Source: a virus
DNA length: 44,194 nucleotides
Reading direction: 5' to 3' (one strand)
IMG/VR virus record: IMGVR_UViG_3300020445_000007
Span: 1-44,194 of that record
The position numbers and the translations under genes were made by a program. Shown piece by piece: positions 366 through 28,642 of the stretch (position 1 is the first letter of the stretch; each line of letters opens with the position of its first letter). The notes under the pieces are model-generated. The model searched no databases. It saw only the letters and a program-made list of their open reading frames with translations, and was not told the origin of the DNA.

Positions 366-1618
366 TATGAGAACTCCTGACCGCCTGTGAACCCGAACCA
401 AGAACTACCACCAGACACAGTTGATAGAGATATAACATCGCTATTGTTCTGTGTAGATGTCATAGTAGGTGATGTACCATTTGGCCATTTAGTGTTCGCT
501 GGCCACGTAATAGTATACTGAGAGTTGTCAGCGTTAGTAAAGATAAAGGTTAACGTTACTGAACGTGACGATGTAGGTAGTGTAATATTAAATGTAGTTA
601 TATTCTTATCCAATGCTATAGTAAACACTGACGCTGATGTTGCATCGATGGTTAATACGTTAGATCCACTAATAGCAACGTTAGTTACTGCTTCATCAAA
701 GCATCCATTAATTCTCAATGGAGCATTGAGTGTTGTTAGTGCTGATTGTACAAGTAACTCACTAGTACTACCAATTTGTAAGTCTATTGAACCATTTGTA
801 TCAGTATTATCAATCGCTACTGTACCACCATCATTAACAATGGTGAGTGGACTAGTACGTAATGAATTCTTATGTAAGTGAATACCAGACTTCTGTGCTT
901 GTGCACTGTTAGGATGTACTTCTATGTACGTAGCCTTAGCAGTTGTGTGGTCTGCTCTAAACCTACCAACTACTACATCAGCATCTACCGAATCAACTTT
1001 AACATCCAATGCAGTTGCTGGTACTGCTGTACCTATACCTACACGATCTGTAGTTGAATCAAATATCAATCCACCTGTCTTAACATTAAGACCAGTGGAT
1101 GCTGTAAGGTTAGTAACTGATATATCATTAGGTAATCTAGCATTATCAAATTGAGCTGATGTTACCTGTGTTGCTGCTATATTATATGATAATTGATTAG
1201 CACCCTCGAAGAATGCAGTACCACGTATACTACCAGTGACATCTAAGTCATAGGTTGTACTAGTACCTGATACAGTAATAGAGGGAACTGTAAGTAAATC
1301 TGTTGATGGATCATAAGTAAATGCTGCCTCACCACCAAGTGCTAGTCCATCTTTATATTGTACTTGGTTACTAGCATCACCGCCTGGTTGCAAACCACCA
1401 GCAAGACCACCAGAAGCAAACAAACTCCAATAGGATGTGTTTACAGTACCAGTAGTAGATGGTATCTGATTGGTACCATCCGCTATTGCAATGTATGCAC
1501 TAATAGTTGATCCGTCATCATAATGGACAAGATCATCTGCTGTATATGCTGTACTATTAGACCATAGTCCTTGCCAGGTAAGTTTAATCTTACCAACGTC
1601 TATTGTGAATTCTGCCAT
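365..1618 (-). CDS. Tail-fibre-like protein with carbohydrate-binding-like N-terminus
   Basis: 417 aa. Residues about 10-70 (WQGLWSNSTAYTADDLVHY, then YIAIADGTN and YWSLFASGG) have the pattern of the small CBM5/12-like module common in phage fibres: W-x-G-x-W, a D-x-V-x-Y strand, and a final aromatic strand. The centre contains the fibre phrase DRVGIGTAVPATALDV, seen in many phage and bacterial fibre-like beta proteins. The C-terminal 100 residues are Thr/Ser/Asn-rich beta strands ending GFTGGQEFS, probably a tip or trimerisation region. Start and stop are both in TAATG overlaps with neighbours, so it is co-translated with the fibre genes. Role in host-surface binding is inferred. Confidence 0.75.
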   Translation of the reverse strand: MAEFTIDVGKIKLTWQGLWSNSTAYTADDLVHYDDGSTISAYIAIADGTNQIPSTTGTVNTSYWSLFASGGLAGGLQPGGDASNQVQYKDGLALGGEAAFTYDPSTDLLTVPSITVSGTSTTYDLDVTGSIRGTAFFEGANQLSYNIAATQVTSAQFDNARLPNDISVTNLTASTGLNVKTGGLIFDSTTDRVGIGTAVPATALDVKVDSVDADVVVGRFRADHTTAKATYIEVHPNSAQAQKSGIHLHKNSLRTSPLTIVNDGGTVAIDNTDTNGSIDLQIGSTSELLVQSALTTLNAPLRINGCFDEAVTNVAISGSNVLTIDATSASVFTIALDKNITTFNITLPTSSRSVTLTFIFTNADNSQYTITWPANTKWPNGTSPTMTSTQNNSDVISLSTVSGGSSWFGFTGGQEFS

Positions 1619-3585
1619 TACCTTACAGTGACGATGAGATGCCCACTACTATCTATATTGAAAACCAACCCCGCAGGTGCGAAGAACTGGTGGGTATTCT
1701 GTGGGTCTGAATACTCTGTATATGATATATTTGTAGACCTTCCTGCTTTAAGTACAGTTAGATTACTTTGGACTGATGTTGGTTTCTGAATGATATAATA
1801 ATCACCAGCATCACCAGACTCTTTCCAATTGACACCATTATATGTCTTGAGTGTATCCTCAGCAGTATTATAGAAAATCTGTCCATTAATAGGAGTTTGA
1901 GGATCTACAGCACCAGATATGTCTACTTTATCTGATGTCACTGCGTTGTCAGCTAACTTAGAAGTTGTTACATTCAAGTCACGAATAGTATTAGTTACAA
2001 CTGCTTCAGCTCCACCTGTACTATTTAACTTAACATCCGTTACAGAATCATCTGCAAGTGATGCACTACCATCAATTCCACCTACATTAATTTTTGCAGA
2101 TGTAATTGTATTGTCTGCTAGTTTAGCATTAGTGACTGATAGGTTAATAATTTTAGTAGTTGAGACTGACAAGTCATCAAGCGTATCCGTCTGGACTCTT
2201 GTGAAGTCCTGTAGAGTACCAGTTGCAGTTGCAGGAGACTGGAATAAGAAACCTGCTGAGTATGCAGACCAGATACTTCCATTGTAATACCTTGTTCTAA
2301 CGTAGTAATTAGTTGATGGACGGATAGAATCAGTCGGAATAGGGAATGTAGTCTTGTTAACAGTGTCACTAGTAGCAGTAATCACTACGTTATTAAACCC
2401 TGCATCAGTTGATACTTGCCAATCACTATAAGTATGTGCCTGACCAGTACTTTGTGTTGCAACATAAGCAGATGAAACTACATCCATTCTATCATAGATT
2501 GTAGATTCTGTAATACTAGTCACATATGGACACTGTATCTCACCAGGAACATCAATAGTCGTGAAGTAAATGGGTTCAGAATATTCTGATAACCAAGTAA
2601 CATTCTGTAGGTCAACATACTGGTATCTTACACGTGCATAGTATGTTCTACCTTCCTCCAACACACCATTACCAATTGTAATGGTTGTTTTATTGTTAAT
2701 ATCATTTAATGACTGATACACAAGACCACTAGTGTTGGAGATCTGTGATGATGTAGTACCAGTTGCACCAGGAGCTGTAGTTGAACTACTACCAAACGTA
2801 GGTGCAAATGCTATCTGCCACGTAGATGATACGTGAGTAGCACCATTAGTACCAGAGAATGTAGAAGAACTAAGAGTTGGTGTCAAACTTTGACCAGATG
2901 CTGCATCAACAGGTGTTGTTATAGATGGTCTATTAATCTGAGGATTAACATTAACCTGAGTGTCTGTATAGAATGATGAAGGGGAAGACCACTCAGAGTA
3001 CTGTCCTAGATTATCCTTATACCTTACACGTATATAATATAATGTGTTATGTGTTAAGACAATATTAGCATCATAGAACTGCGTGAGCATACTAGGGCTA
3101 TCTATTGTCTGTGATGTAATAGTATTAAAGTAGTAGTCAGTAGAAACCTGCCAATCACTCCTACTATGAGTATTCACACCAACATATGCAGATGATGGAA
3201 TAATAGGAATTAGTGCTGTTGGAGATGAAACAGTTACCGTAGGCGTATTAATTTGTGCACCAGTATTAAACTCTGCAACCTGAGACCAGTTAGAGATATT
3301 ACCAAGAGTATCTCTAAATCTAATACGTAAGTAGTAAGTTTTATTTGAATCCAGCGTAGATGCTGGTACAGTTAAAGAAGTCTTATTAACTGTATCATTC
3401 TGGTTATATGCAAAAGTAGCAGACTCAAAACCAGTTGAGGTATTGATCTGCCAGTCTGTTGAATCGTGTGTGCCAGGAGCAACCCCACCAGTTGTCACTG
3501 CATAGAATGCAGTACCCGCCACCGTAGGTGTTAGCGAGCTTGGTGATGGGAGGTACCCAACGGCTGGTGGGAATACTAGTGCCAT
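1618..3585 (-). CDS. FN3-like repeat virion protein
   Basis: 655 aa. About four fibronectin-III-like repeats occupy roughly residues 1-450. Each has a strand with (S/T)-x-W-Q-(I/V/A), for example STDWQINTS, SDWQVSTD, SSTWQIAF and SDWQVSTD, followed 50-60 residues later by a Y-Y-x-R-x-R-(Y/F) strand, for example YYLRIRFRD, YYIRVRYKD, YYARVRYQY and YYVRTRYYN. Residues about 460-560 contain repeated LADNTITSAKI-type phrases, typical of trimeric fibre shafts, and a compact beta tip follows. The stop overlaps the start of the 417-aa fibre (TAATG). FN3-like domains are common on phage tails and are thought to give weak glycan adhesion; that role is inference here. Confidence 0.8.
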   Translation of the reverse strand: MALVFPPAVGYLPSPSSLTPTVAGTAFYAVTTGGVAPGTHDSTDWQINTSTGFESATFAYNQNDTVNKTSLTVPASTLDSNKTYYLRIRFRDTLGNISNWSQVAEFNTGAQINTPTVTVSSPTALIPIIPSSAYVGVNTHSRSDWQVSTDYYFNTITSQTIDSPSMLTQFYDANIVLTHNTLYYIRVRYKDNLGQYSEWSSPSSFYTDTQVNVNPQINRPSITTPVDAASGQSLTPTLSSSTFSGTNGATHVSSTWQIAFAPTFGSSSTTAPGATGTTSSQISNTSGLVYQSLNDINNKTTITIGNGVLEEGRTYYARVRYQYVDLQNVTWLSEYSEPIYFTTIDVPGEIQCPYVTSITESTIYDRMDVVSSAYVATQSTGQAHTYSDWQVSTDAGFNNVVITATSDTVNKTTFPIPTDSIRPSTNYYVRTRYYNGSIWSAYSAGFLFQSPATATGTLQDFTRVQTDTLDDLSVSTTKIINLSVTNAKLADNTITSAKINVGGIDGSASLADDSVTDVKLNSTGGAEAVVTNTIRDLNVTTSKLADNAVTSDKVDISGAVDPQTPINGQIFYNTAEDTLKTYNGVNWKESGDAGDYYIIQKPTSVQSNLTVLKAGRSTNISYTEYSDPQNTHQFFAPAGLVFNIDSSGHLIVTVR

Positions 3586-3599
3586 TAGTTTAGTTTATT

Positions 3600-6500
3600 T
3601 TATGAGCAAGTAGGGTTACAATCACCTAAGTATGAATAAAGAATTGGCCAAGGTGCAGGAACCTGGAAGTCCAGTGTCCTTGGTGTGATACCATCAGTTA
3701 CCTTGACTTGTGCTATTCCATCCATACCTATAATAGGTTGTTCTGGGTGATTACGATCTCTCAATGGTTTGATAAAGTTGCAGAAGTAATCGTTAGATGG
3801 TGTAACGCAAGCACCGTTCTGTGTGTATGCGAAATCATATGTGTGATCCTGACAAGGATCAGCAACTGCTGTAAGGTTAATCAAGTCAGTAAGTGTGAAT
3901 GGTGAACCTATCAACTCTACCCACAATGTGTATACCTTTTGAGTACCACGTGCAGGGAAGATAGCAGGTTGAATATCATTCTTAACAGAGAAGTCAACTG
4001 GCATATTGATAGAGGTGTCACCACGGAAGGGACACTCACGTAAGAGTCCAGTTGCTGCTGCTAATTGACCTGTGTATGTGCTAAAATCACCTGTGTTAAC
4101 AACAGTAGGACCGTTAGCGTGTGTAGCATTATTAAGAGTGAAGATGGTTCTAGTACCACCGTCAGTTGTTTCCATATATGGGAACTCATTAATGATACGC
4201 ATTCTCCAAGTAAATGTACCAGCATCAATTGTGTATGATACAGTTACATCCTGTGTCTGGTTGTTAGTAACAGAGAAATTCTGTGCACCCTTATAGTAAT
4301 CTTGTATCTGTAATGAATTAATGTCAATGTATGGTAGTGCACTCAATGGTGAACCAGCAACGTCAATCACGAATGAACGTGTAAGAATGTTACCGAAGTA
4401 ATCACCACAAGTTAATGCAGTATCTACAAAGCCATCAACGTGACGTAAGTATCCATTAGATAGGGTACCAGTCCATCCATTAGAATACTCGTACCACCAC
4501 ATACCCAACTGAGGTGGGTTAGCAATAACACTAATCTCATTAGATAGTGATGAGTATGATCCGTTGTAAAGATACAACTGGAATGAATATGGTTCGTTTA
4601 CACCAGATGGAATACCATTACAAGGAATATCAGTTGCACGAATAACATTACCAGAGTTGTCTAGAGGTGGTACTAACCCTGATGGGTTTTGGATAGGTAC
4701 TTCAACAGCATATCCACCGTACATACTACGTAATGGGAACTCTTCAGTAGTACTGATGTAGTTACCTACGTATACACCATTTCCTCCTTCAGTTGGAGAA
4801 TAGTCAACAGTAACATCATTACGAGCATCTACCCTAGATCTATAGTAATTAGATGCTAGTGGTACATAATCAGGATATGTTTCATACTGTGTCTTCCAAG
4901 CGAATGACTTAGTACCTGTAGCAGTATCGTAAGTGAATGACTTACTGAACCAAATGTACTCAATGTTCTGGTCAGTACAGACTAACTGTACAGGGAAGCG
5001 ACCATTCTTAGGATCCTTATCAGCAGTTAGATAAGGAGTAGTGTTTGGATAATGTGTTTCTCCACCGTACTCAGTATTTGCAGTGAATAGGTTAGCAGTA
5101 ATTGCGTTAGCACCACTGTACATAGTCAGTGCTGGCTGTGCAGGTAGTGCAGGTAAATTGCTAACTGTTAATTGTACAGTAGATGTAATGATTGCATTGT
5201 AAGTAGTAGTAAAGTCTAAGTGCTGTGATGCAAATGTAGTACCACCAGACTGACCGAACCAGATACTTGCTAGACTATATGACTCAGGTATATAAACCTC
5301 AGCCCAAGCACCAGCAGATCCTGGTGTTCCATACGTACGTACGTTAGTAGTACTTGCAGAAGCAGTAGCACCTAATCTAAATTCAAATGTCTTACCAGTC
5401 CAAGATGAATCACTAAGATTAAATCTATAGAACGCACCCTTAGGTACTTCAAATACAGTAGAACCACCAGCATTAACTTGAACCTGATAGTCAGCACCAA
5501 CTGCTACTAGATCATATGTTACTCTCCAACGCATCTTGCAACGGAAGAACGCATTAGCAAACTTCCACCACTTATTAACAACAAGATGAGAGAATCCCAT
5601 CTCACGTCCTGTTACGTCCTCATACTTCTCAACGTATGCGTAATGTGTATTCTTATTATCTACATTATTCTCGAACCAGTCTCCTTCCTCATATCCTGAG
5701 CTAGTTGCAGCAGCAAGTTCATTTAGATTGTACCACTGACTACCACCACCTTTGTCACCATACAGTTGCCAGAATGGTACGTACTCAAACTTATCATTGT
5801 CAAACTGAGTCTGAGTAAACATAGTACTCAATGACTTGTAGAACAATGGACGTGAGTACCAGTTCTGATTAACCCAAGACACATCGTCGTTAGGCTCTCC
5901 GTGAACTGTATATACTGTATTGTAATCAACTACCTTACTAGTAGCATCGTAGACCATTTCTACGTCTGATGTATTAGTAGTAACATTGGTTAGTTGAATC
6001 GTATACTCCTGAGTTTGCCCAGAAATATTTTCTTCAACTGATAATGTTAGGTTAAGTGTTTCTGTATTGGTTAGAGTACCAGATAATATACCAGTCTCAG
6101 TGTCAAATGTTAGACCAGTAGTAGCAATTGATGCAGAACTACTTAGAGTATAATCTCTATCAACAATAGTTTCAGCAGCAAATGTTCTAAGGAATGATAC
6201 ACCTAACTGTATGTTAACAGCCTGTCCTAAATTAAAGGTACCTAATGAACCAGCAGGAGTATACCAAGTAGTTAATAGGTCAATGTATGGTGTAACAGCA
6301 CCTCTAGTTACTGGCTCATCTGCGTGGTTATGATCTGTTCCTCTATCTACTGGGAGTTGTAGTATCTCTGTACCTTCACCCTCTCCAGCTAATTCTTGTT
6401 GCTCAGTCTGATACCACAATTTGTTATTTGCACTCTCTTGTTGCCAAGTCCAAATACCATCCATTGCCTGATGAGTTCCAGTAACATTAGAAACCTTCAA

Positions 6501-9500
6501 TAGGTTACCACCAACCTCACTAGATTGAGCAGTGAATGATGCCTCTGCTGGAGTGATCTGGAAACTAGTGTTAGCAGAATCTACGTCAGTAATTGGATGC
6601 CAAGTATATTGTAGGGCATTGAATTCAACACCACCTACATCATATACGAATGAATCACCCTCGTATGCTGTGTCACCAGGGAAGATAGGATCTGACTTGA
6701 ATGTATCACCAGCAATATATGGGAATGCAGGGTCACCGTTATCATCTTCAGTAATGAAGTATGCATAGGTACCATTTGGATAGTCAGGAGTCTTACAATA
6801 GCGACCATTTCTCTTATCTAAGTCACCTACGATAAGTCTCTCACCCATATTAGCGTGATTGTAGCAGAAATAGAATAGTGCTTGTGGTGCATCAACAGCA
6901 GGAGTAACTTCCACTGATCTTAGAGTTGCAGCATCAAAGCCAGCAACATAAGCAGCATAATCTACTACTGCATCTTCTAACTTATAAACTACACCAGCAG
7001 TATAAACTGCGTTAATATCTTGTGCGTTCTGTCCACTAACGTGCCAACCCTGTGATACACCATCACCATAAACAGAGAAGAGCATAGCGTGAGTATCATT
7101 AGATGCATCAGATAGGTTAAAGATATACTTTCTACCCTTTCTAAAGTTGAAAGAAGGTTTCTCTACAGTACCATCTAATCCAGTACCACTAATGTAGTAG
7201 CGATTACCACTACCAGAGGTTACAGCAGCTGATACAACCACTGTGTAAGTTGTTTCTAATCCATCGTTATCATTACCAGCATATTCAAAGTCTTCATTGA
7301 ATGACTTATATGGATATGATACAGTAGAAGGACGGTTGAGATATCCATCAGGTGTTCTACCTACCAATTTCTGCATATATCCTGGCTTAAGACGAACAAC
7401 AGAACTAGAACTATTCGTCTCATCCTGATAACCATATGGTCCGTAGATAGGATAACCATCAAATGCTATTCCTAAGATCTTAGAGTGTCCATTAGCGTGT
7501 CTCCTGTAGTCACCTTGAATATTAGTATTAGTTGTAATAGCATCACCCATCTTGGAATGATTATTACATACGTAATGAAGATCAGCAGGTGCATCTAAAG
7601 GAACTATAATAGTTACAGATCTAGTTGTTGCAACGTCAAATGATGAGACATATGTAACAGCATCAACAGAGACACCATTAAGTCTGTATGTTACACCATC
7701 GTTATACTTAACACCACCACTGTGTACACCATCATCTGTACTAGAGAAGTATAATGGGTGAGTGTCATTGGAGGTATCATCTTGATTAAAGATGTATGTA
7801 TTACCCTTAGTGAATTCAAGTGTAGGTTGCTCAGTAGTAACACCAGCAGCACTTCTTAAGAAGTAACCATTAGCACTACCTGAACCAAAGTCATTGTTAC
7901 CAGCAGTCTTAACATCAACAGTTACGACCCAATTAATAGTTTGATATCCTAGATCGAAGTAACTATTGGCAATATATGTGGATCCAGTACGAACAGCTTC
8001 ATCCTCATATGATTCTAATAACTTACTAGAGTTATATCCATATACATTTGCTGCATTAGGATAACCACCGTATGTGTCAGCACCAGTTAAGTTCTCGTTA
8101 GTAACGTCATTGAATGTCCAACCAGGAGTTGGTCCACTCTCGTTACTGTAATGGTACATATACACACCAGTTGTGCTTATACCAAATGGTTTAACACTAC
8201 GTAGTGGTATGGCAACTGGAAGAGTTGTGGAGTGACCGTAATCAGTACCTCCTCTCCAGTTAAAGTCTTGGTCGAATGATTGATCAACAATACTATTTGG
8301 GTTACCAGCAGTAATTGCAATAGATGCTACAGCAGTTGCCTGTACACCACCAGCAACGTTTGGTGCTGCGATAGAAACAGTTGGAGCAGTTGAGTATCCA
8401 GTACCTGGGGTAGTTACATTTAATGCTGAGATATAACCATCAAGAACCGATAGGGTTGCGGATGCTTGAGCACCTGCACCACCTCCACCTCCAGTGAAGC
8501 TAACAGTACAAGTGGTATATCCAACGCCAGGAACATCAATAGTAATTGCATCAAGAACACCAGTTTGTGTACCAATATCACATCCAGCAGCTGCAGGTTC
8601 TTCAAAGACTGGGTTTGCAGATGCACTACCACCGTAAGCTACAGGATCACCATAGAAGTAATCTCCAATAACGTACGGGAATACAGGAGTTGCTGACGAA
8701 TTAAACGTCATAAAGTATGCGTATGTACCACCTGGGAAGTCAGGAGTAATACAGAATCTACCGTTTCTACGGTCTAAATGAATTGATTCTCCAGCAGTAT
8801 TAGTACCCGTCTTCAATTCATAATCCTGTATAAAGGATCCCATTGGGTAAGTATTTGTATTAGGAGCATAACCAACAGGTTCAGTCAGGGTAATAGTACC
8901 CGTCATTGCTTGGTGTGCTTCGCAGACGTAATAGTAAGTGCCAGGATATGTTGTAGATGTGTTCCACAATACAGTAGCATTATGGTTACCATTGTTAGTT
9001 ACTGTTGCAACTACCTGCGCAGGGTTGTAAGGAGCAGGTACTTTCTGAATCCAGAATGGATGGTTAACAGTTGTACCACCACCGCCACCAGGAGCAGATA
9101 CTGTAATAGTTCCAACCATACTACCGTGGTATTCGCACTGGTAGTAGTAAGTACCAGCAGTTGTTGGAGTCCAACTAACAGTACCACTCTGTGTACCTTG
9201 GTTAGTTGCACCACTTACCTGATTTCCAGTACCAGTACCAGCAGCAGTCTTTAGATAGAATGGATGTCCACTAGCAGATACTGTAAAGTTAATAGTATCA
9301 CCTTCATAGAATGTTAATCCTGGATCAGCACCATTTTGGTTACCATTTCTATCAGATCCAGAGATTGTATAGTCATTAGAGTTAGATGCTGTAACAACTA
9401 AGTTATAAGTTTGAGGAGTAGATCCACCACCACCACCTGTGACATAAGATGCGTTAACGTTGAAGATAAGGTTGTCACCAACATTAGCAGCAATACTTAC

Positions 9501-12500
9501 ATCAGTACCAGAGTTTGATGAACCACCTGTTGCAGTGAACAGATAGTCATTACTATCAGATGCAGTAACATCCCAAGTGTAGTTTACAGGAGTGTATGGA
9601 GTACCTGAACGAACAGATCTTACATCATAAGCAGATATCATCCTTGCTAATGTTGTATTCGATGCGGGATCATCATATCCAATTGGACCATAGATGGGAT
9701 AACCATCCATAGCGTATCCAACTATAGGTGAGTGATGAGTTGCATTTATAATATCTGATGTGGTATGTGATGGTAACGCAGCAGAGTTTGTATTTGTAGT
9801 AACAGATGCAGCACCACCATACCCTGAATACAATGAGCAATAGTAATAAAGGTTAGCTGCTTCAGGTTGCACCTGTAAGTATGTACCAGTACCAGCCTGA
9901 CCATCACCAGGAGTACCCTGATACTTAATACCTGTTAAGTACTCACTACCACCTTGGATGTGAATACCATCCTGTGAATCTGCTAATCTAAATGGGTATC
10001 CAGTATTAGTAGAGTCACTCTGATCGAAGTAATATGTATTACCTTCTGATAAAATAAGGTTAGGTGTCTGATTACCATCTAAGTAGTACCTATTACCACC
10101 AGCAGTATTAACTACAGTGACAACATAGTTTGTAGTTGATCCTTTCCAAGTATTGATTAGGAAGTCACCAGTAATGTAGTAGTATGCTCCATCAGTATTA
10201 ACTATACCTGTACCTTCGTCAGCACCGAATGCAGTTCTAGTAGTATACTTATCAAAGGCATATCCAGTAGGACAGTTATATCCAGAAGGTAAGTTAACAC
10301 CACTACCGTGACTCCAGTTACGTATACTAACACCGTTCTTGGTAAGACCAAGCATATCGTAAGCAAATCCTTGAGTTGATGTAGGAGTATCAGCAGTAAC
10401 GTTCCTACCACCACGATATGTTATTGTATGATTATATCCTTTCGGTAATATTGAATAAGAGTTGTTTGCGTTAGGGAAGACACCATATAATGCAGGCTGT
10501 GGTAAGTTATCAGCAACCTGTGTTAGTGCTCTACTAACTGTGTTCAAGTTACCAGTTGTAACAGATCCACCACCAGATACAAAGTCATTGTCTGGATTGT
10601 GTGCAGGATTATTAACTGGTGCAGATGCATTAGCAATACCAACAGTAGGTGCTACAGTATATCCTGAACCTGGACTATTAATAGTGACAGCAGTAACAAC
10701 ACCATCAACCACAACTGCGGTTGCAGATGCACCAAGTCCTCCACCTCCAGTGAAGGTAATTGTTGGTAAATCTAGAGGGTTGTATCCGTGACCACCGTTG
10801 GTAACAGTAACACTTTGTATACCACCACCAGTAAGTGAGATAGTTGCAGTTGCAGTTGCACCAACACCATCTCCAGTAAGGACTACGGTAGGTGCTACTG
10901 TGTATCCAGAACCAGCTTGATCAATGTTAATACCTGTGACAGCACCACCAGTTAGTGTGATAGTTGCTGATGCAGCAGCGTCTACTCCACCACCACCTGA
11001 GAAACTAACAACAGGTGCTACAGTATATCCTGAACCCTGTTGACTTAGAGTAAGGTTAGAAACATATCCAGATGTTCCAGCTTTAGGGAATGTACCGTAA
11101 AGACCTGGAGCAGGATGATTGTCACTAACAAGATTAAATAATCCACCTTCTTTATGGTATGCAGCAGTAGGTGATCCAGCAGATGTTACCCATACATCAG
11201 AAATCACATCCTGAGATATAATACCAATAGGAGTACGAACTTGAACTAAATTACCAATAACAGGGTTGAACCTAGAAAATTCAGATCCCAAGTTAAATGT
11301 TATAACATTACTTGCTTGACCTACCGCAACAGTAAGGTTAACACCATCTAGTGTTATCTCATCTAGACTGTTATTAGGATAGGTCTGAACACTACCACCA
11401 CCAAATTCATAACTAACAGGTGATGCATTACCACCATTATATTGACGACTGTAATCCCAATCAAGTGGTCTACGTAACCAAGCTTTTGCTAACTTAGGAA
11501 GTGATTGACCACCTTCATAAGTATAATTCTGAAGATATGCCATCTTCGTAGCCCACTGGAGTAGAATACCAGCAACAATAGGACCAGAGAATGATGTACC
11601 ATCAGTACAAGCATAGTAAGAAGAACTTACTTGGTTGTATACAGTATTACTATTCCAATAGTATTGTGGGACATATACTGATTCACCAGGAGCACTAGTA
11701 GTAATAGTACCGTAGTTAGAGAACGCAGAGAATGTATTAGCCCAAGATGTAGCACCAACGGTTATCTTACCATCGAGACTCTCTTGTCCAATCTCCATAT
11801 TCCACTTGTTATCCTTCGGACCATTAGAACGAACACCAGGTAAGAATTTACCTTGATATCCTTCATAGGATGAACCACCTATTGTATAGAATCCATTACC
11901 AGCAGAACGTACAAGAATGATGTGGTTAGCTACAAGATAGTTTTCATAGTCATCAAACAATGTGTCACTACCCAATCCAGTATCAAATCCAGGTTCGTTC
12001 TTAGGAACATAAGGATATGAAGGACCAGGTGCTGTTGTTCCTAATGATGCGTTAACAATGGCAGGTCTATAGTTACCTTTCCAATTAGCGTGAGCAGGAT
12101 TATTGTGATTAACAATTGCTAAGATAGCATATGCAAATCTACTTGAAAATGTTGAGTACTCAGATCCTAATTCATTAAAAACTTTTAGAGAATATATTTT
12201 AGACTTCTTGGATACACCAAAGGTTCTACCAGCAGCAAAGATAGCACACTCTGTACCGTGACCTGAATCATCCTCATTACTATTTGCTACACCGTTGAGT
12301 GTGATACCTGAGTTATACCCTGGAACCTCATACACACGATAATTTGCTTGTTCTGTCGCACCATTTAAATCGGATGCGTAATCTGGGTGATACAATTCTG
12401 GGTGTAGGTTAGCACCAGCAGATCCAGTTGGTCTGCTACATCCACGAACACCAGTGTCAATAACATATAAGTCTGAATTCTCTCCGTCTTCGGTCAATGA

Positions 12501-13487
12501 ATATAGACCATATCCTAAACCATCCTGATACTGCGAAATTCTTTGTAAGTACCACTTATTAAACAACGTAAACTTCATCGATCTTGTCGTTGAAGGTAAC
12601 GAAGAACCTGAAAGACCTAAGCCTGGAGTAGTATCTTCATAAAGATATAGTTCTAAAGGTGTAGTTGCAGTAATTGGAATAGCGATGTAAGCACCATTAC
12701 CATTGCCACCACTGTTACCAGAGCCAGGAGTACCAACTCTTACAACACCAGTAGTATATTCTACACCACCATTATGTACACCATCTGGAGTAGTAGAAAA
12801 GCACCACTTATAGTTTAAGTTAGAAGCATCTCTTACCCAAATATAAACTACAGTACCTGGAACTAGGTAATCTATCTGATAAGATTCATAGACCAAACCA
12901 CCAGCATAGTATCCTAATTTAGGACCAAAGCTACCATTATTAACAACACCTTCATAGGTTGGAGTGGAAGTACTTCCAGTGTAGGGAACAACATTACCAT
13001 ATGCAAAGGGATCTACCTGTTGCTCTAAGTTTGGAATACTATCGCCTTCTTGCGCAATTGCAGTAGCAATTTCTGTTCTTGTAGGGGAATTAAATGTTAA
13101 AGTACCGTGCTCAGTCTTAGGGTCTGTTACTGCGTCTGGAGGGGGAGTTACTTCTGCGGAAAATTTTGTTGCGTCTGCGTGATTAATATGCGACTCTGGG
13201 TTCATCCAGTGTGATATAGCTTCTTCAGTTGCTGATACGTCATCTTTTGGGATTCTAATCTCTTTATCCCAACGAGCACCTATTACTTCAGGAAAATCTA
13301 CGTTACTCTTTAAAACTTCAATATAATTCTGATCCTTTCCAGGAAAATCCAAAAACACTTGGTTAAGTGCTCCAAGATCGTGTGCCTCTATCAGCGACGT
13401 AAAACGTTGTTTCGCACGTTCAATGACGGCTCTTGTATCGGTCTCTTTCGATACCGTAACAATAAGTCTGCCTTCCTCTTTTTGCAT
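3600..13487 (-). CDS. Giant virion protein: subtilase + cupredoxin-like + YHYH domains
   Basis: 3295 aa. Residues 1-100 look like an I9-type protease propeptide. Residues about 330-660 are a subtilisin-family (S8) protease: D344 in YVIDTG, H410 in DSGHGTE, oxyanion N531 in RSAGNG and nucleophile S632 in DGTSFSGP, all in canonical order. GxGY-type beta repeats lie at about 806-956 and 1640-1730. Four cupredoxin-like segments have an upstream His and a C-x2-H-x2-M motif: H1408/C1451/H1454/M1457, H1476/C1522/H1525/M1528, H1910/C1974/H1977/M1980, H2133/C2208/H2211/M2214. Two YHYH-like domains carry DGYPIYGP (about 1251-1268 and 1997-2017). Residues around 2450-2500 show an FDTETGILSGT (He_PIG-like) motif; the rest is beta-rich. 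No signal peptide. It sits among fibre genes behind a late-type promoter, so it is probably virion-borne. Copper binding and protease activity are inferred. Confidence 0.85.
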   Translation of the reverse strand: MQKEEGRLIVTVSKETDTRAVIERAKQRFTSLIEAHDLGALNQVFLDFPGKDQNYIEVLKSNVDFPEVIGARWDKEIRIPKDDVSATEEAISHWMNPESHINHADATKFSAEVTPPPDAVTDPKTEHGTLTFNSPTRTEIATAIAQEGDSIPNLEQQVDPFAYGNVVPYTGSTSTPTYEGVVNNGSFGPKLGYYAGGLVYESYQIDYLVPGTVVYIWVRDASNLNYKWCFSTTPDGVHNGGVEYTTGVVRVGTPGSGNSGGNGNGAYIAIPITATTPLELYLYEDTTPGLGLSGSSLPSTTRSMKFTLFNKWYLQRISQYQDGLGYGLYSLTEDGENSDLYVIDTGVRGCSRPTGSAGANLHPELYHPDYASDLNGATEQANYRVYEVPGYNSGITLNGVANSNEDDSGHGTECAIFAAGRTFGVSKKSKIYSLKVFNELGSEYSTFSSRFAYAILAIVNHNNPAHANWKGNYRPAIVNASLGTTAPGPSYPYVPKNEPGFDTGLGSDTLFDDYENYLVANHIILVRSAGNGFYTIGGSSYEGYQGKFLPGVRSNGPKDNKWNMEIGQESLDGKITVGATSWANTFSAFSNYGTITTSAPGESVYVPQYYWNSNTVYNQVSSSYYACTDGTSFSGPIVAGILLQWATKMAYLQNYTYEGGQSLPKLAKAWLRRPLDWDYSRQYNGGNASPVSYEFGGGSVQTYPNNSLDEITLDGVNLTVAVGQASNVITFNLGSEFSRFNPVIGNLVQVRTPIGIISQDVISDVWVTSAGSPTAAYHKEGGLFNLVSDNHPAPGLYGTFPKAGTSGYVSNLTLSQQGSGYTVAPVVSFSGGGGVDAAASATITLTGGAVTGINIDQAGSGYTVAPTVVLTGDGVGATATATISLTGGGIQSVTVTNGGHGYNPLDLPTITFTGGGGLGASATAVVVDGVVTAVTINSPGSGYTVAPTVGIANASAPVNNPAHNPDNDFVSGGGSVTTGNLNTVSRALTQVADNLPQPALYGVFPNANNSYSILPKGYNHTITYRGGRNVTADTPTSTQGFAYDMLGLTKNGVSIRNWSHGSGVNLPSGYNCPTGYAFDKYTTRTAFGADEGTGIVNTDGAYYYITGDFLINTWKGSTTNYVVTVVNTAGGNRYYLDGNQTPNLILSEGNTYYFDQSDSTNTGYPFRLADSQDGIHIQGGSEYLTGIKYQGTPGDGQAGTGTYLQVQPEAANLYYYCSLYSGYGGAASVTTNTNSAALPSHTTSDIINATHHSPIVGYAMDGYPIYGPIGYDDPASNTTLARMISAYDVRSVRSGTPYTPVNYTWDVTASDSNDYLFTATGGSSNSGTDVSIAANVGDNLIFNVNASYVTGGGGGSTPQTYNLVVTASNSNDYTISGSDRNGNQNGADPGLTFYEGDTINFTVSASGHPFYLKTAAGTGTGNQVSGATNQGTQSGTVSWTPTTAGTYYYQCEYHGSMVGTITVSAPGGGGGTTVNHPFWIQKVPAPYNPAQVVATVTNNGNHNATVLWNTSTTYPGTYYYVCEAHQAMTGTITLTEPVGYAPNTNTYPMGSFIQDYELKTGTNTAGESIHLDRRNGRFCITPDFPGGTYAYFMTFNSSATPVFPYVIGDYFYGDPVAYGGSASANPVFEEPAAAGCDIGTQTGVLDAITIDVPGVGYTTCTVSFTGGGGGAGAQASATLSVLDGYISALNVTTPGTGYSTAPTVSIAAPNVAGGVQATAVASIAITAGNPNSIVDQSFDQDFNWRGGTDYGHSTTLPVAIPLRSVKPFGISTTGVYMYHYSNESGPTPGWTFNDVTNENLTGADTYGGYPNAANVYGYNSSKLLESYEDEAVRTGSTYIANSYFDLGYQTINWVVTVDVKTAGNNDFGSGSANGYFLRSAAGVTTEQPTLEFTKGNTYIFNQDDTSNDTHPLYFSSTDDGVHSGGVKYNDGVTYRLNGVSVDAVTYVSSFDVATTRSVTIIVPLDAPADLHYVCNNHSKMGDAITTNTNIQGDYRRHANGHSKILGIAFDGYPIYGPYGYQDETNSSSSVVRLKPGYMQKLVGRTPDGYLNRPSTVSYPYKSFNEDFEYAGNDNDGLETTYTVVVSAAVTSGSGNRYYISGTGLDGTVEKPSFNFRKGRKYIFNLSDASNDTHAMLFSVYGDGVSQGWHVSGQNAQDINAVYTAGVVYKLEDAVVDYAAYVAGFDAATLRSVEVTPAVDAPQALFYFCYNHANMGERLIVGDLDKRNGRYCKTPDYPNGTYAYFITEDDNGDPAFPYIAGDTFKSDPIFPGDTAYEGDSFVYDVGGVEFNALQYTWHPITDVDSANTSFQITPAEASFTAQSSEVGGNLLKVSNVTGTHQAMDGIWTWQQESANNKLWYQTEQQELAGEGEGTEILQLPVDRGTDHNHADEPVTRGAVTPYIDLLTTWYTPAGSLGTFNLGQAVNIQLGVSFLRTFAAETIVDRDYTLSSSASIATTGLTFDTETGILSGTLTNTETLNLTLSVEENISGQTQEYTIQLTNVTTNTSDVEMVYDATSKVVDYNTVYTVHGEPNDDVSWVNQNWYSRPLFYKSLSTMFTQTQFDNDKFEYVPFWQLYGDKGGGSQWYNLNELAAATSSGYEEGDWFENNVDNKNTHYAYVEKYEDVTGREMGFSHLVVNKWWKFANAFFRCKMRWRVTYDLVAVGADYQVQVNAGGSTVFEVPKGAFYRFNLSDSSWTGKTFEFRLGATASASTTNVRTYGTPGSAGAWAEVYIPESYSLASIWFGQSGGTTFASQHLDFTTTYNAIITSTVQLTVSNLPALPAQPALTMYSGANAITANLFTANTEYGGETHYPNTTPYLTADKDPKNGRFPVQLVCTDQNIEYIWFSKSFTYDTATGTKSFAWKTQYETYPDYVPLASNYYRSRVDARNDVTVDYSPTEGGNGVYVGNYISTTEEFPLRSMYGGYAVEVPIQNPSGLVPPLDNSGNVIRATDIPCNGIPSGVNEPYSFQLYLYNGSYSSLSNEISVIANPPQLGMWWYEYSNGWTGTLSNGYLRHVDGFVDTALTCGDYFGNILTRSFVIDVAGSPLSALPYIDINSLQIQDYYKGAQNFSVTNNQTQDVTVSYTIDAGTFTWRMRIINEFPYMETTDGGTRTIFTLNNATHANGPTVVNTGDFSTYTGQLAAATGLLRECPFRGDTSINMPVDFSVKNDIQPAIFPARGTQKVYTLWVELIGSPFTLTDLINLTAVADPCQDHTYDFAYTQNGACVTPSNDYFCNFIKPLRDRNHPEQPIIGMDGIAQVKVTDGITPRTLDFQVPAPWPILYSYLGDCNPTCS
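6840..9900 (-). repeat. Cupredoxin-like and YHYH domain duplications in the giant protein
   Basis: Reading with the gene: a degenerate cupredoxin-like copy (LYYYCSLYSGYGG, ligand His replaced by Tyr), YHYH copy 1, two intact copper motifs, an intact third motif followed by YHYH copy 2, and a fourth intact motif. The order cupredoxin then YHYH occurs twice, so the pair seems duplicated as a block. Confidence 0.7.
10615..11085 (-). repeat. GxGY-type tandem repeats in the giant protein
   Basis: Four units of about 35-40 residues share GSGYTVAPxV, a GGGG or GDG turn, and A-x-A-T-I/V strands, followed by a V-T-x-(I/V) strand. A further pair is at about 8290-8575. Related units occur in the gp5-like and gp53 proteins. 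Confidence 0.8.
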
Positions 13488-13521: not shown

Positions 13522-13529
13522 TATTTAGT
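13522..13529 (-). promoter_or_regulatory. Late-promoter-like box ACTAAATA
   Basis: ACTAAATA lies 35 nt upstream of the giant-protein ATG and contains the TAA stop of the PKHD oxygenase gene. It matches T4 late TATAAATA at 6 of 8 positions and is identical to boxes at 28666 and 33299. Confidence 0.5.
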
Positions 13530-14199
13530 AAGCTTTATAACGCATCAAAGCATTCAGTTGTTCATCCAAAGTTCTTGTCATACCATAATGAGGATCATCA
13601 GGAGAGGTTGCGTTAGGATAAAGTTTATGTAGTTCAGTTTTTGTCTCATAATTAAGGGTTGCAATCCGTCGATCATCATCACAACGGAACATTGATGTAG
13701 TCCAAAAAACAGCTACGTTTCTTTCACCAGATGTTACCTCTTTGACCATATGCCTAGTTCCAGTGGGATAACTAAATGCCCATCCAGCAGGTAATTTAAC
13801 TTCAAGAGTTTCAGTACCGTGCTCTAAGACTAGTTCTCCTCCTTCATATTCATCTGGTTCGTTTAAAAATACAGTTGTACTAAAATCAGTTCTTGCTTGA
13901 CCACCCATAAAAGGTGAGTCGCAATGCCAATTATAATGCATACCCTCGGTATACTTAACGAATAAAGCTACGGTACTGGTACAGCCCCACATATAAAAAT
14001 TGGGTACTGTATGCTTCTGAAAATTATCCCAGATTATATTCCAAGCAGCCTTACTGTGCTCATCCTGCATCTCAACATTGTTTTTGATTTTCTTGTCATT
14101 AGCACCAGTCTTGGCACCATCAGTAAAATCAGAGAAACCATAAAAATCTTGAACGTGTTTAAGATTAACATCATTCAATAGCTCATAACGAAAAAACAT
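13525..14199 (-). CDS. 2OG-Fe(II) oxygenase, PKHD-type hydroxylase
   Basis: 224 aa, the usual size for PKHD/PiuC-like Fe(II)/2-oxoglutarate hydroxylases. The iron ligands appear as H92-x-D94 (NWHCDSPF) and H150 (TGTRHMV), with R160 (SGERNVAVFW) as the probable 2-oxoglutarate anchor. The family phrases FLNEPDEYEGGELVLEHG and KLPAGWAFSYPTGTRH are clear. Such enzymes hydroxylate proline or other residues of proteins; the phage substrate is unknown. It lies 2 nt after the tail-chaperone-like gene and before the giant protein, so a virion protein substrate is possible (inference). Its TAA stop lies inside the late-promoter-like box of the next gene. Confidence 0.88.
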   Translation of the reverse strand: MFFRYELLNDVNLKHVQDFYGFSDFTDGAKTGANDKKIKNNVEMQDEHSKAAWNIIWDNFQKHTVPNFYMWGCTSTVALFVKYTEGMHYNWHCDSPFMGGQARTDFSTTVFLNEPDEYEGGELVLEHGTETLEVKLPAGWAFSYPTGTRHMVKEVTSGERNVAVFWTTSMFRCDDDRRIATLNYETKTELHKLYPNATSPDDPHYGMTRTLDEQLNALMRYKAY

Positions 14200-14201
14200 A
14201 A

Positions 14202-14879
14202 TTAGGGCACAAATGTAGCGTCAGTAGGGGGAACTGGCCAACCAGTAAAGTTATTATAATCATATGGATCTGCTTGTTGAGACGGGAGATCTCTTAAACG
14301 TTTCCTGTATGTCTTCCAATTATCTTTAACTCTAGCAGCAGCAGGTACTTGAGCTGGGGGATCAGCAGCATAATGTTCCCATATATCTTCCAACATATAG
14401 AAATCAGTGTCTTGCATTAATTGATCTCTCATAGCACGAAGTGCTAGAAGATTCTCTGGAATTTGATTGTCAACGAAATATTTTCTCTGGTTCTCTGCAT
14501 CAAGTGCTGCTTGTTGCTCCGCATTATATGCAGTTTCGTACGTTGTACGAAGAGGAGTCAACGTGTTAACCAAAGTAGTTGCTTCATTAACCTTTGTAGA
14601 ATCATTAGTAGTAATAGCTACTTCACCACTTAGATCCTTATTTTCGGCAAGATACCAAACTGCTTCACCTACTGGATTATTTTCTTTCCAATAGTGAAGG
14701 CAAGTTAATTCATCTACACCAGCAACGTGGAATGTACCATTAATGGCAGGAAGAACTGTACTAGTCCAATCACTATCAGAGATAACAAATCCCTGTTGCT
14801 TACCAGTTGAATTTTTACCGCCGATAATTTTACTATCTACCCAGATAGTGAAATCGGCTTCTCCAAAATTACGAGCCAT
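14202..14879 (-). CDS. Tail-assembly-chaperone-like protein
   Basis: 225 aa. The C-terminal half (about 140-225) has the layout of the Phage_tail_APC family seen after fibre genes: a conserved R-x-x-R-D-Q-L helix (LRAMRDQLMQDTDFY), a Y-R-K-R-L-R-D-L-P helix, and a terminal W-P-V-P-P motif. The N-terminal 100 residues are not recognised. A central Ala/Glu-rich helix (about 115-140) may be a coiled coil. It overlaps the upstream oxygenase gene by 11 nt and is 2 nt from the next oxygenase, forming a three-gene set. By family analogy it may help fold or attach a fibre; the partner is unknown. Confidence 0.7.
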   Translation of the reverse strand: MARNFGEADFTIWVDSKIIGGKNSTGKQQGFVISDSDWTSTVLPAINGTFHVAGVDELTCLHYWKENNPVGEAVWYLAENKDLSGEVAITTNDSTKVNEATTLVNTLTPLRTTYETAYNAEQQAALDAENQRKYFVDNQIPENLLALRAMRDQLMQDTDFYMLEDIWEHYAADPPAQVPAAARVKDNWKTYRKRLRDLPSQQADPYDYNNFTGWPVPPTDATFVP

Positions 14880-15519
14880 TTAATAGATACCATCCTGTCA
14901 ATATGTATTTATCACCTGATAAAACTGTATTTCCCTTGTGTGTATGCGTAAAACCAGCAGGCCATACAACACAGGTTCCCCTTGTAGGTTTAATCCTTCT
15001 CTTCTGATCAAAAAATTCTGTCTCACCACCATCTTCTACATCATTTAAGTAAATCATCCAAACTAAAACACGTGGAGAATGAGATAAACCCATTGCTTCA
15101 TAGTGCCATACGTGATAACCACCACCCTCAGGAGTATGCTGAAACTTGATGACACTACTCATCATCGTTTCTGTTTCTAACTGTGGATACTTAAAGATAT
15201 AGTGTTGGGTAATCGATTTAAGATATTGTAAGGTAACGTTCTGTAAGGTAGGATTATTATGATTGATTAAAATTTGCTTATCATATCTACCAAGAGAACC
15301 TTGCGGAAACTGTACTCTACCATCAGCAACAGTTGTAGAATCTAACTTAGGAGTAACTATATCCGCAGCCTGCTCTAAAGTATCATACCAGTCAATATAC
15401 TGCTGGCATAAACCCTCTGGCATTAATCCTGGCCAGACTCCAATGAAATCACTGAACTCTGATTCTGTAACCTTGGAGTCTAACATCAACTCCATAGGTT
15501 TTATTGGTGCTAAATCCAT
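14869..15519 (-). CDS. 2OG-Fe(II) oxygenase, prolyl-4-hydroxylase-like
   Basis: 216 aa. The double-stranded beta-helix core is visible: GGGYHVWHYE gives an H139-x-E141 pair where most relatives have H-x-D, then LVWMIYLNDVEDGGETEFF, the G-x-x-V-V-W-P-A-G-F-T-H strand with the distal His (H192 or H194), and K204 (GDKYILTGW) as probable 2-oxoglutarate anchor. Glu in place of Asp is a conservative change that can be tolerated but is notable. The last codons overlap the start of the chaperone-like gene. Likely a protein hydroxylase; the substrate is unknown. It differs enough from the 224-aa enzyme that recent duplication is unlikely. Confidence 0.88.
   Translation of the reverse strand: MDLAPIKPMELMLDSKVTESEFSDFIGVWPGLMPEGLCQQYIDWYDTLEQAADIVTPKLDSTTVADGRVQFPQGSLGRYDKQILINHNNPTLQNVTLQYLKSITQHYIFKYPQLETETMMSSVIKFQHTPEGGGYHVWHYEAMGLSHSPRVLVWMIYLNDVEDGGETEFFDQKRRIKPTRGTCVVWPAGFTHTHKGNTVLSGDKYILTGWYLLNGS
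14906..14913 (-). promoter_or_regulatory. Late-promoter-like box GATAAATA
   Basis: GATAAATA (7 of 8 to TATAAATA) lies 27 nt before the ATG of the tail-chaperone-like gene, inside the end of the HxE oxygenase gene. It encodes Asp-Lys-Tyr there, so chance is possible. Confidence 0.4.
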
Positions 15520-27790: not shown

Positions 27791-28642
27791 TTAGAACCAA
27801 TCAGATGACCATTCACCTGATTGATCTCCCTCTGGTTGGGGTTGTCCACCACCACCAGTTGCAGGAATTGCAGTGGTTCCTTGTGGACCTCCACCTTGCT
27901 TACCTTCTTCTTGTCCTAAACGTTCTGTTGCCTCTAGCTCACTAACCATCTCTACATTGAAAGAGAATGTCATATAGAGTTTTCCGTCAGGGTTCTTAAC
28001 AATACCTGGTTGCTTATGCACCATATGACCCAACTGAGAAGGGAATATAACAACATCTCCTTCTTCTACGTTTAGAGTCATTTCCTCTTTATAGCATCCA
28101 TATCCACACATATCAGGATCGTAGAAATGCTTATTATAACGAGGTGCCTCAGAAAAGTTCTTAAGCGGGTTTATAAAAGTTGTTGACTGATGAAGTTCTG
28201 GGTCATATTGAACATACCAACAACCTGACAAATGTGAAGGTACGTGATTATGCTCTTCTTGGTTCTGACCAGGACCATATGCGTTAAACCACTGCTGTGC
28301 AACTAAAAATGCGTGAGGATAGAATTCTGCCATCTTAATGGCTTCTTGAATATTAGCAGAAATGTCCTGTAATAGAAGTCCAACTTCGATCTCGGTTTCC
28401 TTGGTATGGTCTACCATACTCTCATCAAAGAAGGATGTGTAACAATCACAATTCCAACAAGCATTTCCTCCTGTATCCCTACTATAACTATTCGACCCAT
28501 TTACTTCTTGATACCTTCTTGACAAAATCGGAAATACCGCATCTTTCCATTTGGCGTGATTCTGGAGTTTTCCCCGATATAGAAACATTGGGAATAACGA
28601 GAACAATCCATATTGGTCTAGTTTATTAGTTTGTTGGGCCAT
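27791..28642 (-). CDS. 2OG-Fe(II) oxygenase-like protein (2OG-FeII_Oxy_5 type)
   Basis: 283 aa. The core motif QEEHNHVPSHLSGCWYV (about 128-144, H131/H133) followed by GDVVIFPSQLGHMVHKQPG (H206) and KLYMTFSFNV matches the putative 2OG-Fe(II) oxygenase family often seen in marine phages. A Cys-rich patch (ACWNCDCY, 61-68, and CGYGC, 179-183) is unusual and could bind a metal. The last 50 residues are a Gly/Gln/Pro-rich tail ending in WSSDWF. It is monocistronic: a late-type box upstream and a strong terminator 20 nt after its stop. Its substrate is unknown. Confidence 0.8.
   Translation of the reverse strand: MAQQTNKLDQYGLFSLFPMFLYRGKLQNHAKWKDAVFPILSRRYQEVNGSNSYSRDTGGNACWNCDCYTSFFDESMVDHTKETEIEVGLLLQDISANIQEAIKMAEFYPHAFLVAQQWFNAYGPGQNQEEHNHVPSHLSGCWYVQYDPELHQSTTFINPLKNFSEAPRYNKHFYDPDMCGYGCYKEEMTLNVEEGDVVIFPSQLGHMVHKQPGIVKNPDGKLYMTFSFNVEMVSELEATERLGQEEGKQGGGPQGTTAIPATGGGGQPQPEGDQSGEWSSDWF

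Follow-up and report, generated by a model that had tools for sequence, protein, structure and literature searches.

Why a phage would join a subtilisin-type protease to a giant protein, and what such an enzyme could cut, is the question raised by the 44,194-base stretch of DNA analysed here, which is a whole virus record and is called the window below. The first-pass annotation had placed a complete S8 protease behind an I9 propeptide at the beginning of a virion giant, and had proposed self-processing or cleavage of host-surface proteins during adsorption. Taken as a whole, the best explanation, to which we give a probability of about one in two, is a zymogen-type subtilase at the N-terminus of a giant of the tail-fibre/baseplate region, cutting a host-surface protein at adsorption.

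The virus and the parts of its giant protein

Tail and baseplate families of PHROGs turn up all along the window, with matches to tail fibres, hub/lysozyme, tail tube, tube cap and wedge, and the tail-tube-cap protein shares about 33% identity with those of Synechococcus phages. Nine records that encode a relative of the S8 domain were examined for reaction-centre genes (PF00124), and six have them, including 5/5 of the window's own lineage, hereafter lineage A; in a control set of 14 genomes, the match occurred in Synechococcus elongatus alone. The presence of these genes in all five tested lineage-A contigs points to a T4-like cyanophage, and the best reading of the genome is that of a marine virus from a lineage distant from the cultured ones. 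The giant protein, its parts and the next gene are as follows.

1618..3585, minus strand: P0004, the next gene, tail-fibre-like (tail fiber families phrog_28766/892; phrog_27200, 1670-1829; synteny)
3600..13487, minus strand: giant protein with protease, 3,295 aa (ORF translation)
13248..13475, minus strand: I9-like propeptide domain, residues 5-80 (predicted fold, superposition with pro-subtilisins)
12963..13247, minus strand: fast-evolving low-confidence linker, residues 81-175, where the propeptide would be released (dN, pLDDT)
12588..12962, minus strand: beta domain, residues 176-300 (cupredoxin-like according to the P-HM1/P-HM2 alignment; strands in both models)
11454..12575, minus strand: S8 (proteinase K-like) catalytic domain, residues ~305-678 (PF00082 match, structure comparison)
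12456..12458, minus strand: catalytic Asp344, context LYVIDTGV
12258..12260, minus strand: catalytic His410, context SGHGTEC
11895..11897, minus strand: oxyanion-hole Asn531, context VRSAGNG
11592..11594, minus strand: catalytic Ser632, context DGTSFSGP
6798..10055, minus strand: cupredoxin-like and YHYH domains, residues ~1145-2230 (PF14240 in four stretches; PF00127, 22.1 bits)
3603..6587, minus strand: conserved C-terminal part, residues 2301-3295, putative virion anchor (identity, dN/dS)

PHROGs matches within the giant are phrog_27200 at residues 152-895 (E 5.7e-158) and phrog_708, a baseplate wedge family, at residues 1987-2274; the long fusion announced in the first annotation is indeed there, with about 2,600 residues C-terminal of the protease. 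Along roughly 1,000 residues, the C-terminal part is 63-85% identical in 14/16 lineage-A loci, the other two being cut by contig ends, and its dN/dS is 0.19-0.22. The last ~250 residues of the giant (window 3603-4400, minus strand) are near-invariant across nine aligned lineage-A sequences.

Four C-x2-H-x2-M motifs were also observed in the giant (residues 1451, 1522, 1974 and 2208; 0.0025 expected in shuffles), and Pfam Copper-bind scored above its cut-off at residues 1396-1463. We take this spacing to be that of amicyanin-like copper ligands; a tail giant with several blue-copper sites is possible. The motif is lost in the cupredoxin-like domain that precedes S8 in the window and kept in P-HM1, P-HM2 and MED4-213 (L001, L002, L004).

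A conserved S8 domain constantly fused to the giant

Residues 300-700 searched alone matched PF00082 (Peptidase_S8) with an E-value of 1.3e-22 and 81 bits, for a cut-off of 21.8; the family is absent from the match list when the whole giant ORF is scanned and appears only with this piece excised. The nearest solved structures by sequence (phmmer) are aqualysin I (E 3.2e-9) and proteinase K. Judged by the S8 motif definitions, the Asp-His-Ser order, the motifs and the oxyanion Asn are all present, with D344, H410, N531 and S632 at exactly the positions first reported, and the predicted model contains the subtilisin fold (1sh7_B, Z 29.0, rmsd 2.1 over 245 residues). The stretch originally assigned to the protease, 11560-12480 (about residues 336-643), does lie within it, but the domain is larger, reaching from about residue 305 to 678. 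Taken together, these data identify a real and complete S8 protease domain, conserved among its relatives.

When a phage collection was searched with the S8 domain of the window, seven records were retrieved, namely P-HM1, P-HM2 and MED4-213 (two each) and S-BM3. Among viral contigs, a single-sequence search gave 12 loci, an alignment recovered 165 relatives, 80 of which were kept, and more came from other members of the family. Across all the loci gathered by then, D, H, N and S were found together in 154 of 160 S8-domain ORFs, the remaining six missing positions at contig ends (four) or being pieces of the frame-broken L070 (two). The same four residues are invariant in 106/106 distinct S8 domains encoded by named cyanophages or on contigs of marine phages, counted over domains with at least 320 aligned letters and sharing 36-99.7% pairwise identity, and 51 of 388 alignment positions are invariant throughout. 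Thus, the loss of catalytic residues in relatives, which the first-pass annotation had singled out as telling against its proposal, did not occur. The S8 segment has a dN/dS of 0.16-0.32 in 7/8 pairs; in the close pair L006/L018 it is 0.49 at a dS of 0.06, with neighbouring segments above 1. At the level of sequence, the domain is under purifying selection and very likely encodes an active enzyme.

The alignments used here (A2, A3 and A4) leave out near-duplicates, 5'-cut ORFs, L005, which is identical to the window, and the broken frame of L070, and A3 and A4 also leave out the loci of named phages. An earlier sequence set had skipped six loci, four for the want of a literal GTSFS and two for being too short; L021, L060 and L086 are back in A4, which holds 73 of the 74 listed references, the N-terminally short L156 having been dropped.

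A search with the C-terminus only (last 950 residues) gave 22 loci, in 20 of which S8 lies in the same ORF, the other two being cut by the contig end and frame-broken, respectively. Every locus with a visible N-terminus (20/22) therefore has S8 joined to the same giant, and the idea of S8 as an optional add-on was abandoned, as no intact giant without it was seen among these loci, very different C-termini being beyond the reach of the search. Frame breaks were noted in the giants of two relatives, within the glycine-rich repeat that follows S8 in L030 (9227-11848)/L177 and inside S8 in L070; assembly errors are possible in both, and with the L030/L177 break lying within the repeat, a gene split there was not retained. 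A bacterial origin was likewise set aside: a scan of genome contigs based on the S8 alignment found a single relative, located in a Dehalococcoidia MAG on a 7-kb contig (L169, PBPE01000110.1) that is probably a misplaced phage contig.

The N-terminal cap in predicted structures

Throughout the family, a distinct N-terminal domain can be recognised that corresponds to residues 5-80 of the window's giant, and W73-D74 is nearly invariant in it. No I9 profile was found among the Pfam matches of 39 such domains up to E 10, the best being unrelated chance matches (E at least 0.007), and a sequence search of solved structures with the same 39 domains returned no propeptide, only RNA-binding proteins (E 0.4-0.75). 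The assignment of residues 1-100 to an I9 propeptide could consequently be kept for the predicted fold and its placement, and had to be amended as to its extent (about 5-80) and the expected sequence match; for want of a sequence match, the cap is filed as I9-like rather than I9.

Two AlphaFold models were computed, model 1 from a 37-sequence alignment (pLDDT 59.3, pTM 0.62) and model 2 from a deeper one of 73 sequences (pLDDT 73.6, pTM 0.83). Both give the cap as strand-helix-strand-strand-helix-strand, with pLDDT of 84-92 over most blocks. The comparison with S8 proteases and propeptides suggested at the outset was run on them, and the models resemble both proteinase K/aqualysin and pro-subtilisins. 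For model 1, the top superpositions start at model residue 1-5 and are with chains that carry their prodomain, such as PCSK9 (6u2f_A, Z 23.2, 288 residues, rmsd 3.9), pro-subtilisin E (3whi_A, Z 22.9, 294 residues, rmsd 3.5) and pro-Tk-SP (3afg_A, Z 21.6, 308 residues, rmsd 3.8); zymogen chains align over 287-332 residues starting at model residue 1-7, and most mature chains over about 230-243 residues from 310 on. For model 2, mature proteinase K-type enzymes come first among the best 50 rows, headed by the cold-adapted proteinase 1sh7_B with the values given above, and one row spans the N-terminal domain, that of pro-Tk-SP (3afg_B, Z 24.8, 318 residues, rmsd 3.1, model 5-680). Because these superpositions cover cap and protease at once, the cap is predicted to sit as in a zymogen, with a propeptide fold docked on S8. 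This pose may echo known zymogens, as a network trained on them may favour it.

The tail of the cap (residues 78-91) has pLDDT below 50, too low to place the cut site or the entry of this tail into the active site, and strand 76-80 is present in model 1 and missing in model 2. The pLDDT of the linker, taken over residues 81-170, is 26-40 for model 1 and 37-72 for model 2, and its dN is the highest of all segments in 7/8 pairs. A cleavage subsite was sought in the hydrophobic positions that follow the conserved Asp74 (63% at +3), which proved too variable to name a cut site.

In S-BM3, the cap directly precedes S8 and a cupredoxin-like domain sits inside S8, where the window has its beta domain ahead of S8. 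It is thus the beta module that changes place and the cap that stays with S8, as expected if cap and protease work as one unit. The cupredoxin-like insert of S-BM3 (L003, 11737-13500) lies before the oxyanion Asn motif; in this part, L097-L099 match S-BM3 with 77-91% identity. Overall, a zymogen reading is plausible from the models, and the cap probably inhibits or chaperones the protease.

The arrangement can be set beside known enzymes. Proteinase K-type subtilases share the fold and triad of the window's domain (rmsd 2.1-2.6 over 245-247 residues for 1sh7_B and aqualysin I 4dzt); they are secreted, whereas the window's protease has no visible export signal and is fused to a phage giant. The first annotation had reported no signal peptide, and this agrees with a maximum 15-residue mean hydropathy of 0.85 within the first 50 residues, a crude test rather than a signal-peptide predictor. 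I9-S8 zymogens (pro-Tk-SP 3afg, pro-subtilisin E 3whi, PCSK9) are like the predicted model in that one superposition spans cap and protease, but the window has about 225 residues of linker and beta domain between the two, and its cap gives no I9 sequence match.

Among phages, P-HM1/P-HM2, MED4-213 and S-BM3 are like the window in their S8 domain (39-40% identity, tblastn), N-terminal I9-like domain, long C-terminus and phrog_27200 match, and homology over cap, beta domain and S8 places the window's protein in phrog_27200/T4-GC519. They differ in length, lineage A having about 3,230-3,300 aa against about 1,830 in the P-HM type and 2,648 in S-BM3, whose product is named 'peptidase S8' and carries Peptidase_S8 in its record. 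Among predicted viral structures, more S8 proteins occur in cyanophages, in other phages and in giant viruses. The 'subtilisin-like serine protease' of S-H9-1 (L095, 4414-6420) and the 'S8 family peptidase' of jumbo phage Phosso (L096, 7512-11375) start, by eye, with an I9-like part followed by S8, but neither was retrieved with the window's domain; for S-H9-1, the S-BM3 query matched the cupredoxin-like part only, and the S8 of Phosso is 25% identical to a relative of the window's S8.

Tail location and possible role

Gene order was surveyed in 38 chosen loci. In lineage A it runs tail fibre (P0003), 2OG oxygenase, tail-fibre assembly, 2OG oxygenase, S8 giant, P0004 and P0005; the three genes immediately upstream of the giant are kept in all 16 lineage-A loci examined, and P0004 follows in 14 of them, the other two ending before it. 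Of 18 P-HM-type loci examined, 17 have the S8 gene ahead of the gp13/gp14 neck genes, and in the same 17 the S8 ORF contains, close to its end, a segment like the N-terminal part of P0004. Since this segment is fused inside the S8 protein in the P-HM type and is a separate adjacent gene in lineage A, the two products may well touch, and gene order together with this fusion in relatives points to the tail. The S8 giant is thus probably carried in the virion as a tail-borne protein. In the open-licence literature, we found no virion proteome of any phage with the S8 giant gene; those named in the consulted text of PMC3037559 are of S-SM1, S-PM2 and Syn9.

The window has three 2OG-Fe(II) oxygenase genes amid its tail genes (13525-14199, 14869-15519 and 27791-28642, minus strand), and the trio formed by two of them and the tail-fibre-assembly gene in between recurs in the 16 loci.

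That an S8 peptidase exists in this gene cluster was already known, having been published in 2010. The consulted text of PMC3037559 lists 'S8 peptidase (T4-GC518)' among the genes common to P-HM1 and P-HM2 only, of 16 cyanophages, and suggests that genes limited to these two may hint at needs for infecting Prochlorococcus MED4; GenBank notes give T4-GC 519 for the S8 gene and T4-GC 518 for the small gene before it. The main text of a P-HM2 expression study, so far as the terms tried reach into it, leaves the S8 gene unnamed (PMC5082946). The open-licence literature yielded no paper on a phage-tail subtilase and no description of the capped layout, the invariance over 106 sequences or the constant fusion. 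What is new is therefore the zymogen-like layout, its breadth, conservation and constant fusion, and not the presence of S8.

We propose that the I9-like domain would aid folding and block the active site during synthesis in the host cytoplasm, that the protease would cut within the linker after about residue 80, and that the cap would be gone once the virion is free; the tail-held protease would then, as the phage adsorbs, cut a protein at the host surface or close to it. Digestion at the host surface is our first choice, and we judge the chance that the protease acts on host surface proteins to be a little short of even. In its broadest form, a widespread marine cyanophage lineage whose self-capped tail subtilase is activated after leaving the cell that made it and, at adsorption, breaks down the protein coat on the surface of the cyanobacterium, the proposal is more tentative still.

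Self-processing of the tail is the main rival, and both can hold together. An assembly (morphogenetic) protease would cut itself, and perhaps neighbouring tail proteins, in virion maturation, its catalytic part maybe being released or left spent. Such a role is favoured by the layout in cis, in which a cap resembling a propeptide and a variable linker of low model confidence share one polypeptide with the tail giant, by the adjacent structural genes and by the unseen export signal. Related T4-like cyanophages without S8 nevertheless exist, and its restriction to P-HM1/P-HM2 among 16 cyanophages in the text consulted (PMC3037559) argues against a general need in assembly, so that we regard this role as rather unlikely. 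An export signal would equally be dispensable for an intracellular protease acting in takeover or lysis of the infected cell and not bound to the virion; this is improbable given the ~2,600 residues of tail-type domains fused to it in giants with an unbroken visible N-terminus, and the place of the gene within a tail/neck cluster. S8 folds without further activity do exist, such as PCSK9 after processing and the Csp pseudoproteases, and the domain might by analogy be a dead fold retained as a structural or binding module, but the conservation of all four catalytic positions described above makes this very improbable.

Most of the tail enzymes known so far act on sugars or on the cell wall. If host-surface digestion is true, the giant would be the protein-degrading counterpart of polysaccharide-degrading tail depolymerases, and a conserved tail protease on phages of the ocean's dominant phototrophs would suggest that protein coats act as a barrier to adsorption. 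The cultured carriers P-HM1, P-HM2, MED4-213 and S-BM3 would also offer a system in which to test directly how a virus prevents a broad-type protease from doing damage within its host. Elsewhere in the window, a tape-measure-like protein (34896-37580, minus strand) has a peptidase/endolysin-type domain at about residues 660-765, with metallo-endopeptidase matches.
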